Assembly: GCF_030345075.1 (NCBI RefSeq)
Contig: NZ_CP128361.1
Location: 6,014,001 to 6,078,000 of the forward strand
Direction: 5' to 3'
Origin: Solwaraspora sp. WMMA2065
GTDB lineage: Bacteria > Actinomycetota > Actinomycetes > Mycobacteriales > Micromonosporaceae
Length of the DNA: 64,000 nt
Shown here: in pieces, positions 18,573 to 27,567 of the stretch
Layout: each line of letters starts with the position of its first letter
How positions within the stretch are numbered: position 1 is the stretch's first letter
Translations under genes and position numbers: made by a program
The notes under the pieces: model-generated
The model's input: the letters and a program-made list of their open reading frames with translations, nothing else
The model's database searches: none
What the model was told of the DNA's origin: nothing

Positions 18573-19882
18573 TCACCCCAACCGGGCGCGCCATGCGTCG
18601 AAGTCGTCGGCAAGCGGGTCGTCACCGGCCGCCCGGCAGCTGCCGGTGGCCACCTCCAGCAGCCGCTGCCAGACCGGCAGGTACGCCGCCGGTTCCGGCG
18701 GGGGCCGGCCGGGGGCGGCCCGGTACGCGCTGGCGAGCAACGCGTGCGCGGCCAGCGCCAGCCGCCGTCCGTCGGCGTACGCCGACGCCGTGGGCAGCAC
18801 GTCGACGGCGACCGTCGCCAGCTGCACCGCCGCCTCCAACGACAGCCCGGACAGCCAGCGCATCGATGTGGTCCAGAGCAACGTCGGATCGCTGCGCGGC
18901 GTCGCCGTCTCCAGCGGTGTCGCCTGCCCGGCCCCGGCGGTGTGCCGCTGCGCCACCGCTGTCAGCGTCGGCTGGGCCGCCCGGTCCAGCCAGTCGTCGG
19001 CCGGCACCCACAGCAGGCCCCGGTCCCGCACGGTCGGCAGCACCAGCCGCGCCAGGCTGCGACCCATCTCCGGTGGGAACGGCACCGGGCCACCGGCCAT
19101 CGAGAGCAGCCCGTCGACCACCCGCAACTCGGCCTCCAGCGCCTGCCGGGCCTGGCCCGGCGGGAGACCGGCGGCGATCACCGCCGCCGGTACGAAGCCC
19201 TCGACCACCCGGCCGTCGACGAAGTTCAGCAGTGCCGACACCACCGCTGCACTGTGTACGTACCCACTGTCGACGGTGCCGTCCGCGTCATTGCTGTCCG
19301 CGTCGTTTCCGTCTGCGTCGGGATGGCCGTAGTAGCCCAGCGCGGCGTTGGCCGAGGCGATCGCGAGGTGCGGGTCACCGTCCGGTGCCAGCGTCGCGGC
19401 GTTGGACGCCAGCACCCGGGCCAGGTCCCGGCGTCGCGGGTGGGCCGGATCGCCGCCGGTCACCGACAGATAGGCCAGGACCGCCGCGTCGGCGTCGACC
19501 TCCGCCGAGGCGGCCCACCCCGTACCGACTGGGCGAGACCACGGCGGGCCAGCACGTCGGCCAGCGTCAGCTCCGCGTCGGGCACGGCACCGACCAGCCC
19601 GGCGTACGCGCGTACCGCGTCGTCCAGCGCCGCCACCGCCGCCGCCGGATCCCGGTCGGCGAGGTACAGCGAGCCGAGCCGGTAGCACAGGCCACCCAGC
19701 CCGGTCCGCCGTCGCGCGTCGTCCGGCGCGTCGTCGAGCAGCTCACCGGCCAGGTCGACGGCCTGCCGCTGGCAGCGGACCGCCGCCGACCAGTCACCCC
19801 GCCGGCTGTGGTCGGCCGACTCGCCGACCAGCTCGTCGATGCGTGACTCGGGCGGCCGGTCCGGGACCACCGTCCGGGTCAC
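18573..19882 (-). pseudogene. TPR-like protein, frameshifted
   Basis: Two overlapping minus-strand frames together form one protein of about 435 residues. The first (19882 to about 19520) has TPR-like helices (WSAAVRCQRQAVDLAGELL, LGSLYLADRDPAAAVAALDDAVRAYAGL). The second (about 19520 to 18573) resumes with EVDADAAVLAYLSVTGG and continues in good coding bias to the stop. The break lies in a run of G residues (19515-19525), so one inserted or lost base explains it. The GTG start overlaps the DUF1349 gene's TGA. It could be a sequencing error rather than true loss. Confidence 0.65.
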
Positions 19883-20505
19883 CGCCCACTGCGCAGATCG
19901 TCCGGAACCACGTCGTCCAGACTGATCTGCTCGAACGTGGCGGTGCAGCGGTCACCGGTGGGCGACTGGGCGAGGAAGCCGGCCCGGGTCGGCGCATCGG
20001 CGGCACCGGTCAGCCGGAACAGTCGGGCGAACTGCCACGACATGCCGTCGAGTGAGTAGTGGAACGCGTACGCCGACCCCTTGCGCAGCACCCGGAGGTG
20101 GACGCTGGACGCTTCGACGGTGACCGCGTTGGCGTCGTCGGAGGTGCCGTTGGTCACCACGGTCACCACCATCGGCCGACCCTGCGGTGAGTATTCGAAG
20201 CACAGCTTCGCCCAGTGTTCCTCGTCGATACGCAGACACAGCACGCCGGCGTCGAACGCGGCCGTGAAGTCGACCGTGACCCGGGCGGAGAGCGCGAACT
20301 CGCCGTCCGGGCAGTCGAACAGCAGCGCCGGTGCGTTGTGGGTGCGGTACTCGCCGACCGGGTCGACGAACCAGTCGGTGCCGGCGCCTGCGGTGAGCGA
20401 CAGGGCCTGCCGACCGGCGTGATGATCCGCTGCCACCGGCGTGTGCTGCCAGGCGAGCGGCGGCAGCCCGGCGATCGCGGGCGGCGGAGGTGCCTGCGGG
20501 GTCAT
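19879..20505 (-). CDS. DUF1349 domain-containing protein
   Basis: A 208-residue protein of the DUF1349 (concanavalin-like beta-sandwich) family: WFVDPVGEYRTHNAPALLF, VTVDFTAAFDAGVLCLRID, EHWAKLCFEYSPQG, then SVHLRVLRKGSAYAFHYS and FLAQSPTGDRCTATFE. The family resembles carbohydrate-binding folds. No signal peptide is evident, so it is likely cytoplasmic. The ATG at 20505 was chosen because upstream sequence is low in coding character. Its TGA overlaps the GTG of the TPR-like gene. Confidence 0.82.
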   Translation of the reverse strand: MTPQAPPPPAIAGLPPLAWQHTPVAADHHAGRQALSLTAGAGTDWFVDPVGEYRTHNAPALLFDCPDGEFALSARVTVDFTAAFDAGVLCLRIDEEHWAKLCFEYSPQGRPMVVTVVTNGTSDDANAVTVEASSVHLRVLRKGSAYAFHYSLDGMSWQFARLFRLTGAADAPTRAGFLAQSPTGDRCTATFEQISLDDVVPDDLRSGR

Positions 20506-20627
20506 CCTGCCTCCCGGCGGGGCATGTCGGTCTCGTCGGACGCGCACATCGATCTGGTCGGAACTGCAATGCTGCCACGGGCCGGCATCCCGCCGCTGGC
20601 CCGGCCCGTCGGCTCCGGTACCCGGCC

Positions 20628-20692
20628 GGCCTTGACCCCGGGCCGGCCTTGACCCCGGCTGGCCTTGACCCCGGCTGGCCTTGACCCTCGAC
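20628..20692 (+). repeat. Four-copy 16-17-bp tandem repeat upstream of the MerR-clamp gene
   Basis: GGCCTTGACC recurs at 20628, 20645, 20661 and 20677, each followed by a CCGG(G/C) linker. The array ends about 40 bp before the MerR-type start codon at 20732. Each unit contains TTGACC, which resembles a -35 element, and so several overlapping promoter or binding registers are possible. Confidence 0.6.
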
Positions 20693-20731
20693 CTGGTCGA
20701 GGCCGCAGAGTCCATGGACGTGGAGAGCGAC

Positions 20732-21814
20732 ATGCACAGCATCGGCGAGACGGCCCGCGCCAGCGGGCTGACCGTCAGCGCGCTGCGGTTCTACGACGCC
20801 GCCGGCGTGCTGGTGCCGGCCGCGGTGGATCCGCACACCGGCTACCGGTGGTACGCCGTGAGTCAGCTGCGCGCCGCCCGGCTGCTGGCCGGGCTGCGCC
20901 GGGTCGGCCTGCCGCTGGCCGAGATCACCGAGGCGGTCCGGGCGTTGCCCGACGTCACGGTGGCCCGGCGGCTGCTCGACGTGCACCTGCGCCGGCTGCA
21001 GGACGGCCTGGCCGATGCCCGTCGGGAGCTCTCCCGCATCCATGCCCTGCTCGATGCCGAGGAGAACCGAACCACCATGACCACAACCACGACCCGGGTC
21101 ACCGTCGACGCCGCCGACCTGGCCGGCGCGCTGGACGCCGTACGGTTCGCCGTCGGCACCGACCCCGAGATTCCCGCCCTGGCCGGGGTGCACGTCGAGG
21201 TCTCCACCGACGCCGTACGGTTGGCCGCGACCGACCGTTACCGCATGGCGGTCGCCGAACTCGTCCCGACGGCGGTCGACGGCCCGGCGGTGACGGTCCT
21301 GGTGCCCGGCGGCTTCGTGACCGGCGTACGCAGCCAGGTCGACCGTAACCCGGTAGCGGAACTGGCCTTCGGTCCGGACGGCGTCGACGCCTGCGCGCCG
21401 GGCTGGCGGATCACCACCGACCCGCTGGACCACGACTTTCCCGACTACCGGCCGTTGCTGCCGGTCCGGGGCGCCGAGGGCCGACGGCAGGTCACCGTGG
21501 ACGCCACCGAGTTGCGACGGGCGCTGGCACCCGACCGGGCCCCGGCGGTGGTACGCGAACACCTCGGCGTCGCCCACCCGGTCGCGGTGCTGGCGGCGAC
21601 CGACGACGGTACCGTCGAATGCGTCGACGAGGCGGCCTGGCAGGCCGCACCGGATCGGTACGTCGCGGTGAACCGGGAGTTCCTGCTGCAGGCGGTGGTG
21701 GCCGCCGGCGGCGGTCAGCTGGTGCTGGAGCTGGACGGGCCGATCCGGCCGCTGGCCGTGCGACTGCCCGACGACGACCGGAGCTGTTCGCTGCTGATGC
21801 CGATCCGGCACTGA
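20732..21814 (+). CDS. MerR regulator fused to DNA polymerase III beta-clamp-like domains
   Basis: A 360-residue protein of unusual architecture. Residues 1-70 are a MerR winged helix (IGETARASGLTVSALRFYD, HTGYRWY, LRRVGLPLAEI), and 75-112 a coiled dimerisation helix. From about 118 the sequence reads as two sliding-clamp domains: LAGVHVEVSTDAVRLAATDRYRM and DHDFPDYRPLLP, then YVAVNREFLLQAVVAAGG and the C-terminal SCSLLMPIRH, all characteristic of DnaN. The clamp half presumably replaces the usual ligand-binding domain. The ATG at 20732 has GGAGAG five bases upstream; ATG 20714 is an alternative. Confidence 0.85.
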   Translation: MHSIGETARASGLTVSALRFYDAAGVLVPAAVDPHTGYRWYAVSQLRAARLLAGLRRVGLPLAEITEAVRALPDVTVARRLLDVHLRRLQDGLADARRELSRIHALLDAEENRTTMTTTTTRVTVDAADLAGALDAVRFAVGTDPEIPALAGVHVEVSTDAVRLAATDRYRMAVAELVPTAVDGPAVTVLVPGGFVTGVRSQVDRNPVAELAFGPDGVDACAPGWRITTDPLDHDFPDYRPLLPVRGAEGRRQVTVDATELRRALAPDRAPAVVREHLGVAHPVAVLAATDDGTVECVDEAAWQAAPDRYVAVNREFLLQAVVAAGGGQLVLELDGPIRPLAVRLPDDDRSCSLLMPIRH

Positions 21815-22108: not shown

Positions 22109-23038
22109 TCAGTGGTCGACGGTCCCGGCCGCAGCCATCACCCGCAGCGCGTTGGCGTCGACCCGCAGCCTGATCGGGGTCTCCCCGCACACCTCACCGT
22201 CGATCTCCACGGGCGCCGGCCGGTCCGTCTCGACCAGCAGCTCGCCGACCGCGAGGAACGGGTCGTGCCGCAGGGTACGCCGGTGGCCGGTCGCCGCGTT
22301 GCGTACCGTCGCACCCAGCAGGCTCTGCCGGGTCGCGCCGCCGACCGGGTACGCCACCAGCAGCCGGTCGTCGGCGTTGGCGTCCGCGGTGATCGGCCGG
22401 CCGGCCTGGTGACCGCCGTTGGCGACGTACAGCTGATGGGTCTGGAAGTCCCGGTTGCTGCTGGCGGTCCGGACGCTGACCCGTAGCGGACGGTGCCGGG
22501 CCATCAACGCCGCCGCCGTCGCCGGATAGGCGAACTTGCCGACCACCCGTTTCAGCCGGGGCGGAGTACGCAGCATCACCTCGGCGGACAGCCCGATACC
22601 GACGTGGTTGGCGAACGACAGATCACCGGCGAGGCCGAGATCGACGTCGATCACCTTGCCGGAGCTGATGACGCGGACCGCCGCGTCCAGGTCGATCGGG
22701 ATCCCGAGGGTACGGGCGAAGTTGTTGGTGGTGCCCAACGGCAGCAGCCCGAGCGCGATGTCGCGGTGGGCGAGCAGCCGGGCGGCGGCCCCGATGGTGC
22801 CGTCCCCGCCGCCGGCGATCAGCAGGTCCGGGGCCATCCGGACCGCCTCGTCCAGGCTGCTCTCCAACTCACCGGGCTCGTCGACCGGGTAGCTGGCGAT
22901 CAGCTCGAAGCCGGCGTCGGTCAGTCTGCGGGCGGCGTCGGTGTAGAACCGGCGGCCCCGGCGGGACCTGGCGTTGACGATCAGCACCGCCCGCCGTTGC
23001 TGCCGGATGGCGTCGGTCAACTCCTGCTTGGTCCGCAC
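22109..23038 (-). CDS. Diacylglycerol kinase-like lipid kinase (YegS/BmrU type)
   Basis: A 309-residue kinase: ILIVNARSRRGRR-like start (AVLIVNARSRRGRRFY), the catalytic GGGDGTIGAAARLL, LPLGTTNNFARTLGIP, and a C-terminal beta-sandwich ending EIDGEVCGETPIRLRV. It would phosphorylate diacylglycerol or a related lipid at the membrane. The GTG or ATG start near 23038 lies just beyond a strong terminator hairpin that isolates it from the subtilase gene upstream. Confidence 0.88.
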   Translation of the reverse strand: MRTKQELTDAIRQQRRAVLIVNARSRRGRRFYTDAARRLTDAGFELIASYPVDEPGELESSLDEAVRMAPDLLIAGGGDGTIGAAARLLAHRDIALGLLPLGTTNNFARTLGIPIDLDAAVRVISSGKVIDVDLGLAGDLSFANHVGIGLSAEVMLRTPPRLKRVVGKFAYPATAAALMARHRPLRVSVRTASSNRDFQTHQLYVANGGHQAGRPITADANADDRLLVAYPVGGATRQSLLGATVRNAATGHRRTLRHDPFLAVGELLVETDRPAPVEIDGEVCGETPIRLRVDANALRVMAAAGTVDH

Positions 23039-23121: not shown

Positions 23122-26100
23122 TCAGCTCACCGTCACCGCCGAGCTGGCGGTCACTGCCACCGCACCGCCGGTCAGCTGGTGGGTGAAGGTGAACTCGCCG
23201 GGTCGGCGGGTGCGTACGTGCAGCTCCCAGGTCAGGTCGGTGCCGGCGGTCAGCGCCACCTCCGGCGAGATGGTGCCGACCAGGGCGCCGTCCTGCACGG
23301 ACATCGGGATCCGGACCCAGGCCCCGTCGACCCGCAGCTGCACCGCGACGTCGCGGGCGAGCAGGTCACCGTCGGGGTGGGTGACCGTCAGCGTCGACTC
23401 GGCGGTGCCCTGGTCGACCCCGCTCGGGTTGACCACCCGGACCTCGGGATGGAACCAGCCGTCGACCTCGGCGCTCTGCGGGTAGGTCGAGGTGATCGTC
23501 GCCGCCTCGGCCAGCACGAGGGACGACTCGGCGTCGACCAGCCCGCTGTACCAGCCGGTGTCCAGCTCCAGTTGGAGCTGGTACCGGCCGGGCTGCGGGT
23601 CGGCGACCTCGAACCCGTACGGCTGGGCCGCCCAGTCGAGGTAGCCGGCCCGGATCTCGGCGCCGGTCGGGTCGGACAGCCGCAGCACCGGCCGGGCCTC
23701 GTTGGGCGCCAACGCCCGTACCGCCGGCACGACGTCCTCCAGGCGGGTCACCGCCGGCAGGTCGACGAACGGCCGTACGTCGGTGGCGCGCACCGTCGCG
23801 AACGGGTGACCGTGCGCATCGGTCACCGACCAGTCCACCTCGACCGAACCGGGTTCCGGTGTCGAAGCGGCCAGCTCGACCTGCGCCGCGCCGCCGAAGC
23901 CGAACGTGGCGTCGAACGGGTCGATCCAGTCCATCTCCGGCAGGATCTCGCTGACCAGCCACCAGTCGCGTTCCAACCGGGGCAGCTGGTGCACGGTGAC
24001 CGCCTGGTAGCTGTCCAGCGTCGCGACAAGCGGTCCGGGCCCGAACGAGTACGCCCACGGCGCGGTGCCGGCCGGGCGCAGGTAGACGGTCGCCTCATGG
24101 CCGCTGCCGACCAGGTCGGCGGCGAGGTCCACCCGGGCCGACAGATCCTGGGCCGCCTCGGCCCCGGCCGGCCCACCGGCCAGCACCCGGGGCGCGAACA
24201 GCACCTCGTCGTCGTCGAACACCGTGATCACCTTGTGCAGTAGGTACGACGTACCATCGTCGGTCGCGGCCTTGCGCACCACCAGGGTGTACCGGTCGAC
24301 GGCGGCCGGCGTCTCGAAGGTGAGGGTGCCGGCGTCGTCGGTGGCACCGACCGGGATCACCGCGCCGTCGTGGACCAGCTCGACCGCGGCGCCGGCCAGC
24401 GGGCCGGGTTCGGCGTCCGGAGCATCGACCGTACGTGCGGTGAGGCTCACCCGGGGCGGACGCACCCGGAACGACCCGGTCAGGTACTCGAGCGTCACGG
24501 CATAGTTGCCCAGCTCGGCCCGCTGCACCGTCCAGCTGACCGTCTGGTTCACGCCGGAGCCGACGTTGACCGTGGTGGTCGCCGCCGACTCACCGTCGAC
24601 CCGCAGCACCGCCTGGTACGGACCGGCCGCCGCGCCGATGTTCTTCACCTGGGCGGTGACCCGTACCGGTTCGTTGCTCTTCACCACCTCCGGGTCGACC
24701 GTCAACCCGTGCACGGCGAAGTACGGCTGCCCTTCCTCGGCCGGGCGGGCCGCCCAGTCGATCGCGTCGAGGAACACCTGGGTGGCCTGCTCGGTCCAGT
24801 CGACCGGGCCACGGGTCACCGACACACCGTGGGTGGACAGCAGCACGTGCCGGTTGGTGGCCCGCTGGTCGACGCCGATGCCGCCGCCGTAGATCCCGGT
24901 GGTGTCGCTGCGGCCCAGGTCGGCGAGGGTCTGCCGGCCGTCGCCGGAGTAGTCGCCGAACCAGGCGATCCACTTGGCCTGGGTGCTGTCGTCCAGCGGA
25001 ATCCGGTCACCGACGGCGTACCCGTCGAGGATCGGGTGTTCGGCGGTCACCTCGTAGTACGACTCGGCCACACCGGTGCCGCCGGTGTTGGAACCGGTCG
25101 AGACGGGCTGCCCGGTGTGCTGGGACAGCTGCCGGATGCCGTTGCCGGTGCTGTAGGCGTGGTCGGTGAAGATCACCCCGGTGCCGGCGGCGTCGGTGGC
25201 GTCCAGGAACGCCTGGAAGGTCGCCTCGTCGTAGTCGCTGCTCACCCCGTAGCCGAGTACCACGACCGGATGGTCGGCGGCGGCCACCAGCTCGTCCCAG
25301 TCGTAGATCACCGTCTCGATGCCGCGTGGGGCGAAGATCTCGTCGGCGTACGTGTCGACGTAGCTGCCGACCAGGGCGACCGTCTGTGGCGGTGGACTGA
25401 GCGTGAAGTCGGCGGTGACCGCGCCGCCTTCCGGAATGGTCACCTCGATGGCCGGGGAGACATCGAAGCGGGGATGGTCGGCCGTGATCCGGTAGCTCCC
25501 GGCCGGCAGTTCGAGCCGGTAGCTACCGTCGGTGCCGGTGACCACCGGGCTGCCGACCGGCGCGCCGTCGGCGGAGACCGTGACCGTCACCCCGGGTACG
25601 CCGTGACCGCTCTCGTCGAACGTCGCGGCGCCGGTGACCACCCCGATTGGCAGCGGCACCATCGCCAGGTCGACGGTGGTGAACGACTCTTCGACCACGA
25701 CGACGTCGGCGACGCTGGCGGTCTCGTGACCGAACGCGGTGGCGGTCAGCGTGTAGCTGCCCGGTGCCAGCCGCAGGGTGAAGCTGCCGTCGTCCCCGGT
25801 ACGCACCGAGGCCCCGCCCGGCGTGACGGTGACGGTGGCGTCGGCGACCGGGGCGCCGGTGCCGTCGGTGGTGACCCGTCCGGTCACGCCACTGTCGAGC
25901 GCCACCTGCACGGCGGCGGCGTACGCGTCGATCCGGCCGTGGCCGTAGCGGGTGTCGGGTGCCACGTCGGCGTACCGGTCGTCCCAGAACGCGGTGTCGA
26001 TCAGCGCGGTACGGGTCGCGTCGACGCTGAGCTCCGGTGCGCCCTGCAGCAGCAGCGCGGCGACCGCGCTGGTGTGCGGGGTGGCCATCGAGGTGCCGCT

Positions 26101-27426
26101 GGCGTAGCCGTATCCGCCACCCGGCCTGGCCGACCACACCTCGTCGCCCGGGGCGGACAGGTCCGGGGTGACCCAGCTGTCCGGCCAGTCCGCGGGCGGG
26201 CTGGCCCAGCTGGACTTGTTGACCACGTTGCCGCAGGAGAAGTCGGCGACGTTGTCGTCGATGTCGGTGGCGCCGACGCCGACGGCCTCGTAGACGTTGC
26301 CGGGGCTGGACGAGCCGACGCCGCAGCTGCCGAAGATGTCCTCGTTGCCGATGGCGAACGACGGGAATGCGCCGGCGGCGACGATCGCCCGGGTCGGGGC
26401 GACCATCTCCGTCGCGTAGATCGCCGCGCCGAGCGACATGCTGACCACGTCGGCCGGGCGGCCCGCCGGGGTGCCGGCCGAGTCGGTCGGTGCGACCGCC
26501 CACTGCATGCCGGCGGCGACCTGCGCGAAGGAGCCGTTTCCGCCGGGGATCACCAGGCCGTGTGCCATCTCGGCACCGGGCGCGCCGCCGATTGTCACGC
26601 CGGACGCCGCACCACCGTGGATAGTGCCGGAGACGTGCGTACCATGGGTGGACGAGTCGTGCGGCTCGGAGGCCACCAGACCGCCGGCGGAGCTGAACTC
26701 CATCCAGCCACCCGGATAGGTCGGGTCGGTCGGGTCGTCGGTGGCCATCTTGCCGACCAGGTCGGGGTGGTCGATGGCGACCCCGGTGTCCAGGGTGACC
26801 ACCCGGACGCCGGCGCCGTCCAGACCGAGCTCGGTCCAGACCTTTTCGACGCCGATGCGGTCCATGCCCCAGGTGATCCGGTCGTCGATGATCGACGCGG
26901 CCGGGTCGGCGGCGGCGGTCATCTCGGTCTCCGGCACGCTCAGGGTGAAGTTCGGCAGCACCCGTTGCACGCCGGGCAGGCTCGCCAGCGCCGACAGCCG
27001 GGAAGCGTCGGCGGTGAACTCGACGAGCAGCATGTTGGTGATCCAGAAGCGGTTGACCACCCGTACGTCGCCGGCGGTCTCGGCCCGCTCCTCCAGCGCC
27101 GTCTCGACCTCGGCCTGGATCTCCTCGGAGTGGGCGCGCAGCTGGTCGACGGCGGTGTCCGGGTTGGTCGGATAGCGCTGCGGGTTGGGCAGCATCAGCA
27201 GCGCCTGGACCCGGTCGCCGGTCGATTCGGCGACTGTGGCCTGTAGTTCCTCGGCGACTGCGGCGGTGCCGGCACCGGGGGCGTCGGCACCGCCGTCGGT
27301 GGGCGCGGCCGAGACGGGCAGTGGTACGCCGAGTAGCCCGCCGGCCAGCACGGCACCAGCGGTGACGGCCAGCAGGCGGCGTGCCCGGGGCAATAGTCGT
27401 GGTAGGGAGGGCTTGCGTCCTGACAT
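23122..27426 (-). CDS. Secreted S8 family serine peptidase (subtilisin-like, multidomain)
   Basis: A 1,434-residue exported protease. It has an Arg-rich signal peptide (about 1-41), an inhibitor I9-like propeptide (about 70-165) and a subtilase domain with Asp213 (TLDTGVAIDHPD), His261 (STHGTHVSG), the oxyanion Asn361 and Ser446 (ASGTSMATPH). Two carboxypeptidase-regulatory-like beta domains follow (SGVTGRVTTDGTGAPV and GVVTGAATFDESGHGV), then a Rossmann-like segment and CARDB/Ig-type modules. No LPXTG or membrane anchor was seen at the C-terminus. The ATG at 27426 has AGGAG eight bases upstream. Likely extracellular protein degradation. Confidence 0.93.
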   Translation of the reverse strand: MSGRKPSLPRLLPRARRLLAVTAGAVLAGGLLGVPLPVSAAPTDGGADAPGAGTAAVAEELQATVAESTGDRVQALLMLPNPQRYPTNPDTAVDQLRAHSEEIQAEVETALEERAETAGDVRVVNRFWITNMLLVEFTADASRLSALASLPGVQRVLPNFTLSVPETEMTAAADPAASIIDDRITWGMDRIGVEKVWTELGLDGAGVRVVTLDTGVAIDHPDLVGKMATDDPTDPTYPGGWMEFSSAGGLVASEPHDSSTHGTHVSGTIHGGAASGVTIGGAPGAEMAHGLVIPGGNGSFAQVAAGMQWAVAPTDSAGTPAGRPADVVSMSLGAAIYATEMVAPTRAIVAAGAFPSFAIGNEDIFGSCGVGSSSPGNVYEAVGVGATDIDDNVADFSCGNVVNKSSWASPPADWPDSWVTPDLSAPGDEVWSARPGGGYGYASGTSMATPHTSAVAALLLQGAPELSVDATRTALIDTAFWDDRYADVAPDTRYGHGRIDAYAAAVQVALDSGVTGRVTTDGTGAPVADATVTVTPGGASVRTGDDGSFTLRLAPGSYTLTATAFGHETASVADVVVVEESFTTVDLAMVPLPIGVVTGAATFDESGHGVPGVTVTVSADGAPVGSPVVTGTDGSYRLELPAGSYRITADHPRFDVSPAIEVTIPEGGAVTADFTLSPPPQTVALVGSYVDTYADEIFAPRGIETVIYDWDELVAAADHPVVVLGYGVSSDYDEATFQAFLDATDAAGTGVIFTDHAYSTGNGIRQLSQHTGQPVSTGSNTGGTGVAESYYEVTAEHPILDGYAVGDRIPLDDSTQAKWIAWFGDYSGDGRQTLADLGRSDTTGIYGGGIGVDQRATNRHVLLSTHGVSVTRGPVDWTEQATQVFLDAIDWAARPAEEGQPYFAVHGLTVDPEVVKSNEPVRVTAQVKNIGAAAGPYQAVLRVDGESAATTTVNVGSGVNQTVSWTVQRAELGNYAVTLEYLTGSFRVRPPRVSLTARTVDAPDAEPGPLAGAAVELVHDGAVIPVGATDDAGTLTFETPAAVDRYTLVVRKAATDDGTSYLLHKVITVFDDDEVLFAPRVLAGGPAGAEAAQDLSARVDLAADLVGSGHEATVYLRPAGTAPWAYSFGPGPLVATLDSYQAVTVHQLPRLERDWWLVSEILPEMDWIDPFDATFGFGGAAQVELAASTPEPGSVEVDWSVTDAHGHPFATVRATDVRPFVDLPAVTRLEDVVPAVRALAPNEARPVLRLSDPTGAEIRAGYLDWAAQPYGFEVADPQPGRYQLQLELDTGWYSGLVDAESSLVLAEAATITSTYPQSAEVDGWFHPEVRVVNPSGVDQGTAESTLTVTHPDGDLLARDVAVQLRVDGAWVRIPMSVQDGALVGTISPEVALTAGTDLTWELHVRTRRPGEFTFTHQLTGGAVAVTASSAVTVS

Positions 27427-27567
27427 CGATCGTCTCCTGGATCGCAGGGCCGGGATCAACCGGTTGGCATCGAAGATCGCTGAACGCCAATGGCGAACAT
27501 GTTGATGTCGATGACTCCCCGCCGTCAACCCCTCACGATCCGGAACGGGGTCTACCATCCAGACGCG

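Follow-up and report, generated by a model that had tools for sequence, protein, structure and literature searches.

A MerR regulator joined to two domains of the sliding clamp

We analysed a stretch of 64,000 nucleotides from Solwaraspora sp. WMMA2065 (the window) that carries, on its plus strand, a gene joining a MerR DNA-binding domain to domains of the bacterial sliding clamp DnaN. The gene, its promoter and its neighbours are laid out as follows, with residues numbered from the ATG at 20732:

19882-20502, minus strand: DUF1349 protein, no evident connection with the fusion
20621..20687, plus strand: four tandem 16-bp copies of CCCGGCCGGCCTTGAC (Tandem Repeats Finder), the last of which supplies the -35 element
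20681..20686, plus strand: -35 element TTGACC; 81 of 81 genes share TTGAC[CT] in this position
20686..20702, plus strand: predicted operator, the palindrome CCTCGACC-T-GGTCGAGG, read from the sequence and lying inside the 19-bp spacer 20687-20705
20706..20711, plus strand: -10 element CAGAGT, from the promoter comparison of 81 genes
20720..21814, plus strand: MerR-clamp fusion gene; GTG 20720 is the probable leaderless start and ATG 20732 is codon 5
20732..20944, plus strand: MerR winged helix-turn-helix (HTH), residues 1-71 (PF00376 and PF13411)
20954..21070, plus strand: long helix, probably the MerR dimerisation coiled coil, residues 75-113 (AlphaFold2 model)
21077..21079, plus strand: in-frame internal ATG in the linker (codon 116), a candidate second start with GAGGAG 12 nt away, a weak signal in the window copy
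21092..21466, plus strand: clamp domain II, residues ~121-245, with the pocket motif ATDRYRMA and DFPDYR (PF02767, AlphaFold2 model, pocket map)
21467..21811, plus strand: clamp domain III, residues ~246-360, ending in LLMPIR, the second pocket wall, and with a degraded ring-interface segment (TIGR00663 match to the C terminus, AlphaFold2 model)
22112-23038, minus strand: DAGK/YegS-like lipid kinase, no evident connection with the fusion
23125-27558, minus strand: S8 protease of 1478 aa with carboxypeptidase-regulatory-like domains, no evident connection with the fusion

A first-pass annotation had placed a MerR DNA-binding domain joined to DnaN-like domains in an open reading frame at 20732-21814. 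The frame is present at these positions, although translation probably begins four codons earlier, at the in-frame GTG 20720, and the joined architecture is borne out by Pfam, NCBIfam and AlphaFold2/Foldseek. The window protein matches MerR families PF00376 (E 2.2e-11) and PF13411 (E 1.2e-10) and the middle clamp domain DNA_pol3_beta_2 (PF02767, E 6.5e-14), all above their cut-offs, and it matches DNA_pol3_beta (E 0.00023) and DNA_pol3_beta_3 (E 0.0063), each below its own cut-off. DnaN model TIGR00663 matches at 1.6e-24, its 86.6 bits falling short of the 137.65-bit cut-off. The AlphaFold2 model (mean pLDDT 92.7, pTM 0.73) aligns with DnaN crystal structures over ~250-275 columns (Foldseek, E ~1e-16 to 1e-15 among the matches listed). 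These matches, which include griselimycin-bound DnaN structures, have TMq values of 0.50-0.56 and rmsd values of 3.9-8.3 A, so that the domain arrangement of DnaN is matched only roughly. The fusion of MerR and clamp domains is thus confirmed.

Pfam, NCBIfam, the model and the alignment agree that domains II and III alone are present, as had been proposed when two of three clamp domains were counted; the missing one is domain I. In the model, helix 75-113 would provide the dimerisation helix that characterizes the MerR family, and the best match of the HTH among MerR structures is BmrR.

The clamp ligand pocket is kept and ring features are lost

We aligned 51 fusions (the window protein and 50 of its 80 relatives) with 10 actinobacterial DnaN proteins and E. 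coli DnaN (alignment A1; Ec, E. coli DnaN numbering), and marked the 18 pocket positions named in the accessible part of a review (PMC11139829). Over the 51 fusions, the majority residue of actinobacterial DnaN was kept at a rate of 79% at these 18 positions versus 26% at 229 others, a retention matched by none of 20,000 permutations. When only positions conserved in DnaN were counted, 87% were kept in the pocket (14 positions) versus 33% elsewhere (94 positions). Thr172, Arg176, Pro242, Met362, Pro363 and Arg365 are near-invariant in the fusions, Arg365 being missing from the aligned stretches of five fusion rows. The exception within the pocket is Ec246: actinobacterial DnaN has Ser, Thr or Lys there, 45 of 51 fusions have Arg, and the window protein has Pro. 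By this comparison of residues, the clamp ligand pocket is selectively conserved in these fusions.

Domain I forms one half of every clamp ring interface, and it is absent from the fusion. Furthermore, most of the ring-interface and pore positions that we inspected are lost: Ec304, an interface position in domain III, is deleted in 49 of 51 fusions; 34 of 51 carry Arg at Ec273; and opposite the basic pore residue Ec198 one alignment has a gap in all 51, another mostly Pro, Ala, Gly or Asp. The first-pass annotation had also suggested that the transcription factor might be tethered to DNA by a ring of three subunits. With two clamp domains per chain, three chains would give the six of a ring, and two interface positions keep their character, Ec298 being acidic in 27 of 51 fusions and Ec272 hydrophobic (Val) in 30 of 51. 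The missing domain I, the deleted Ec304, the Arg at Ec273 and the non-basic Ec198 speak against such a tether, which we set aside as extremely improbable. Of the pocket and ring interfaces on which the annotation had staked its clamp, the pocket is present and the interfaces, apart from Ec298 and Ec272, are mostly gone. Compared with DnaN, the fusion shares the domain II-III fold and the conserved pocket for clamp motifs, but it lacks the three-domain architecture, has degraded interface and pore residues, and is joined to a MerR domain.

A conserved promoter with an over-long spacer precedes the fusion gene

The sequence upstream of the window gene was compared with that of 80 relatives from genomes (81 genes). 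TTGAC[CT]CT[CT], a 19-bp spacer and an nANNNT -10 element were found in 81 of 81; other spacings to nANNNT were absent (15-18, 20 and 21 bp, 0 of 81) or seen once (22 bp, 1 of 81). Conservation averaged 0.23 bits per position in the 60 bp upstream of the -35 element versus 2.0 bits at many operator positions. The predicted palindromic operator lies within a spacer of the 19-20 bp expected for a MerR target, on the gene's own promoter in all 81 genes, a self-promoter arrangement shared with the TipA class. MerR activators act on over-long spacers, 19 bp among them, according to the available text of PMC8113463. We infer from this arrangement that the fusion is autoregulated.

In 79 of 81 genes the -10 element is followed after 6-8 nt by the earliest in-frame ATG or GTG (8 nt for GTG 20720), suggesting that the transcript is probably leaderless and that the window protein begins at GTG 20720. 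Just upstream of the window promoter, each of the 16-bp tandem repeats ends in TTGAC.

In its layout the fusion resembles the TipA class (TipAL/TipAS, SkgA, AlbA), in which a MerR HTH, a coiled coil and a C-terminal ligand domain are controlled from a self-promoter as a minimal autoregulated drug-resistance gene. Unlike that class, its effector domain is a fragment of the sliding clamp and not a TipAS domain; PF07739 (TipAS) is absent among the six Pfam families matching the window protein at E <=1. Likewise, BmrR and EcmrR are MerR dimers acting on promoters with a 19-bp spacer and carry a drug-sensing C-terminal domain, as the accessible portion of PMC8113463 describes; their effector is a GyrI-like domain, and that of the fusion consists of clamp domains.

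TipA also produces a short isoform, consisting of the ligand domain only, from a second start, as stated in the part of PMC7762955 that is available. Candidate signals for such a start occur in 73 of 80 fusion genes, in which a linker ATG (66 genes) or GTG (7 genes) has a Shine-Dalgarno (SD)-like tetramer at >=3 nt within 14 nt; elsewhere in the same genes an SD-like tetramer accompanies 154 of 1437 in-frame ATG/GTG codons. At the SD column, Arg is encoded by the rare codon AGG in 43 of 55 genes versus a mean of 2.1% at 38 other Arg columns (highest 18%), a comparison drawn from related and not independent sequences. The window copy belongs to the seven of 80 genes without a well-placed signal, and together with the relatedness of the genes this makes a short clamp-only isoform in the relatives suggestive only.

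The operator marks a regulon in fusion-positive relatives

An IUPAC operator pattern drawn from the fusion's own promoters, with the reversed pattern as control, was searched in 92 genomes: first in 20 that carry the fusion, then in 72 of the same family, of which 54 carry it and 18 do not. We found 25 sites in the 20 genomes and 99 in the 54, giving 124 sites in 74 fusion-positive genomes, 70 of which have at least one (none occurs in G342, G362, G367 and G386). The control pattern gave no site in any of the 92 genomes. Likewise, the operator pattern gave none in the 18 fusion-negative genomes, which come from other genera, so that lineage is confounded with the presence of the fusion.

The fusion's own promoter accounts for 67 of the 124 sites; the other 57 are spread over 43 of the 74 genomes. 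The same-strand genes downstream of these 57 encode TPR-like small proteins (23), MFS proteins (14), DnaN (13) and proteins that we take to be YunG-like (6), in four classes defined after the sites had been seen and filled with queries from these same loci (for dnaN, from the window's own genome). At the one remaining site, L157, the first downstream codons are TPR-like in look. Of the 14 MFS proteins, the two compared with family models passed the MFS_1 cut-off and also hit the exporter families 2A0121, Tet(V) and Mef at sub-threshold scores; among the 23 TPR-like proteins, the two scanned gave weak TPR matches, one above its cut-off. We know of no link between TPR-like or YunG-like proteins and drug resistance. 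Judged by its occurrence, the operator pattern marks a regulon in fusion-positive relatives.

In the window's own genome the self-site is the only operator site, as it is in each of seven Streptomyces genomes, so control of exporters and dnaN is indicated for the relatives only. With two mismatches allowed, this genome gave the self-site and one more, and the control pattern gave 2.

We also considered whether the regulon products are themselves clamp binders. A clamp-motif-like stretch was found in one of 44 downstream proteins versus 5.2 expected from shuffles, and the idea was rejected.

Operator sites between dnaA and dnaN in one genus

All 13 dnaN sites (L137, L159, L161-L164, L167, L168, L171, L172, L174, L175 and L177) belong to one genus, where they occur in 13 of 16 tested genomes. 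They lie ~660 nt upstream of dnaN and point at it, following the end of dnaA (read in one of the 13) and preceding a region rich in DnaA boxes. Across the 13 loci the site is conserved and the bases just upstream of the -35 element are poorly so, and no conserved long open reading frame starts at the promoter between dnaA and dnaN.

Griselimycin resistance in mycobacteria has been ascribed to overexpression of dnaN (PMC6204406) and to amplification of the dnaN-ori region (PMC5694481), both as given in the accessible portions of these papers. By analogy, a regulator that raises dnaN would imitate the state of these resistant mycobacteria. A MerR-type promoter in this position reads across the DnaA boxes, and transcription of the origin might itself affect initiation.

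Distribution, neighbours and a sister subfamily

Relatives of the window fusion were found in named genomes (80 proteins; 45-57% identity to the window protein in the 50 aligned), and closer ones occur in the window's own genus, which argues that the fusion did not arise by chance. Their RefSeq name is 'MerR family transcriptional regulator'. The fusion is present in 70 of 150 genomes of the family. A class-wide search of 296 genomes gave 81 matches at E <=1e-30, of which 27 span the HTH and the clamp domains by coordinate reading: 14 are window-like (subfamily A) and 13 of a second kind (subfamily B).

This patchiness bears on the main rival explanation, clamp homeostasis, in which no antibiotic is involved: when DnaN is short or saturated, free polymerases, clamp loader and repair factors would bind the decoy and so raise dnaN and stress genes. 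Such a role is consistent with the kept pocket and with the operator that precedes dnaN in one genus (13 of 16 genomes). However, homeostasis would be a core need, and the fusion is confined to 70 of 150 family genomes and, by coordinate reading, 27 of 296 class genomes; the dnaN site is limited to one genus; MFS exporters account for 14 of the 57 extra sites; and clamp-motif-like stretches are rarer in the downstream proteins (1 of 44) than in shuffles (5.2). We regard this explanation as unlikely.

The gene is an orphan. No neighbour family is common to more than eight of 68 loci, 13 of the 81 having been dropped because the gene caller found no centre gene there, and the attempt to read a function from fixed neighbours was set aside on this count. 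In a plasmid collection, fusion genes occur on five records from Streptomyces and Embleya, including Streptomyces atratus records of ~0.9 Mb and one Embleya record of 3.1 Mb; a phage collection yielded no full-length relative. Some copies look broken, possibly through sequencing error: in G006 the matches lie in two frames, in G002 the match lacks the HTH, and in L093 a stop follows after 30 codons.

A patchy orphan gene would also suit a defence sensor, in which phage proteins or toxins directed against the clamp pocket would be caught by the decoy and trigger a response; the toxin SocB acts at the same pocket of DnaN, as described in the available part of PMC5694481. The exporters in the regulon, however, suit small molecules better, no defence family was noticed beside the gene, and we hold this reading to be very improbable.

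Subfamilies A and B are sisters apart from DnaN in trees of the clamp domains (support 94, against the tool's mark of 95). Subfamily B has an operator of its own: 13 of 17 B genomes gave 13 sites in total, each at the promoter of the fusion itself. A B-like site was also seen on contig 111 of G070. A TPR-like gene follows, overlaps or is fused with the B gene in 11 of the 13 loci in which a fusion reading frame was found, the two without it being L131 and L132; three further loci, in which our script found no fusion reading frame, also contain a TPR match. Since TPR-like genes also stand under A operators, both subfamilies link this regulator to the TPR-like protein, as far as gene arrangement tells. 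At L123 (G201), B regulator and TPR-like protein form one reading frame of 523 codons.

Subfamily B keeps subsite I of the pocket. Subsite II is changed (Ec320 from Asn to Asp, Glu or other residues, Ec323 to Thr or Val), indicating that specificity has drifted in part of the family. This change would fit a clamp fold recruited for an unrelated small ligand that has no tie to replication or clamp drugs. The selective conservation of the pocket in subfamily A and the operator before dnaN speak against such a recruitment, which appears quite improbable.

A proposed sensor of clamp-blocking antibiotics

The first-pass annotation had raised the possibility that a MerR regulator uses the clamp fold to sense a binder of the clamp pocket, and this reading gains support from the conserved pocket and from the predicted operator before dnaN in one genus. 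The clamp pocket is a known target of griselimycin and mycoplanecin, as reported in the accessible part of PMC10817943. Self-control, an orphan gene, a regulon that includes exporters and dnaN, and a pocket targeted by these compounds together point to a sensor of clamp-blocking antibiotics. We therefore favour, as somewhat better than an even chance, an autoregulated TipA-like MerR activator with a sliding-clamp decoy as effector, which would sense and counter such antibiotics. The fuller circuit, in which a ring-less copy of the clamp on a MerR activator detects clamp blockers and raises the decoy, exporters, TPR-like proteins and, in one genus, the clamp itself through a promoter across oriC, we consider evenly balanced.

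In the proposed mechanism, a ligand of the clamp pocket would bind the decoy domains of the fusion, and the ligand-bound MerR dimer would activate its target promoters by twisting their 19-bp spacer. The targets would be its own gene, giving more sensor and decoy, the TPR-like protein and MFS exporters; in one genus dnaN would also be switched on, giving more of the target. The most likely ligand would be a clamp-blocking antibiotic made by neighbouring actinomycetes, griselimycins for example. Antibiotics and polymerase motifs occupy the same pocket, so that it does not discriminate between them. The architecture, the conserved pocket, the lost ring features, the operator and the regulon were all read from sequence, and from them we infer ligand binding, activation and resistance.

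The closest parallel among known resistance genes is GriR/MypR, likewise a second clamp protein tied to clamp-targeting antibiotics. A dnaN gene for self-resistance is part of the griselimycin and mycoplanecin clusters, and in the available text of PMC10817943 GriR/MypR appears as a DnaN-encoding cluster gene and not as a transcription factor; the fusion places a ring-less fragment of the clamp on a regulator. The literature searched, mostly outside subscription papers and preprints, yielded no description of the fusion or of its mechanism, in agreement with the first-pass annotation, which knew of none.

If the proposal holds, the regulator would sense a drug with a copy of the drug's own target and, in one genus, would appear to control the gene of that target as well. 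The fusion and its promoter would then offer a ready biosensor for new clamp inhibitors, and the TPR-like and YunG-like families, which have no clear role, would gain testable functions. Transcription through oriC would be linked to clamp status, and soil actinomycetes would be predicted to possess an intrinsic, inducible resistance to antibiotics of the griselimycin class.
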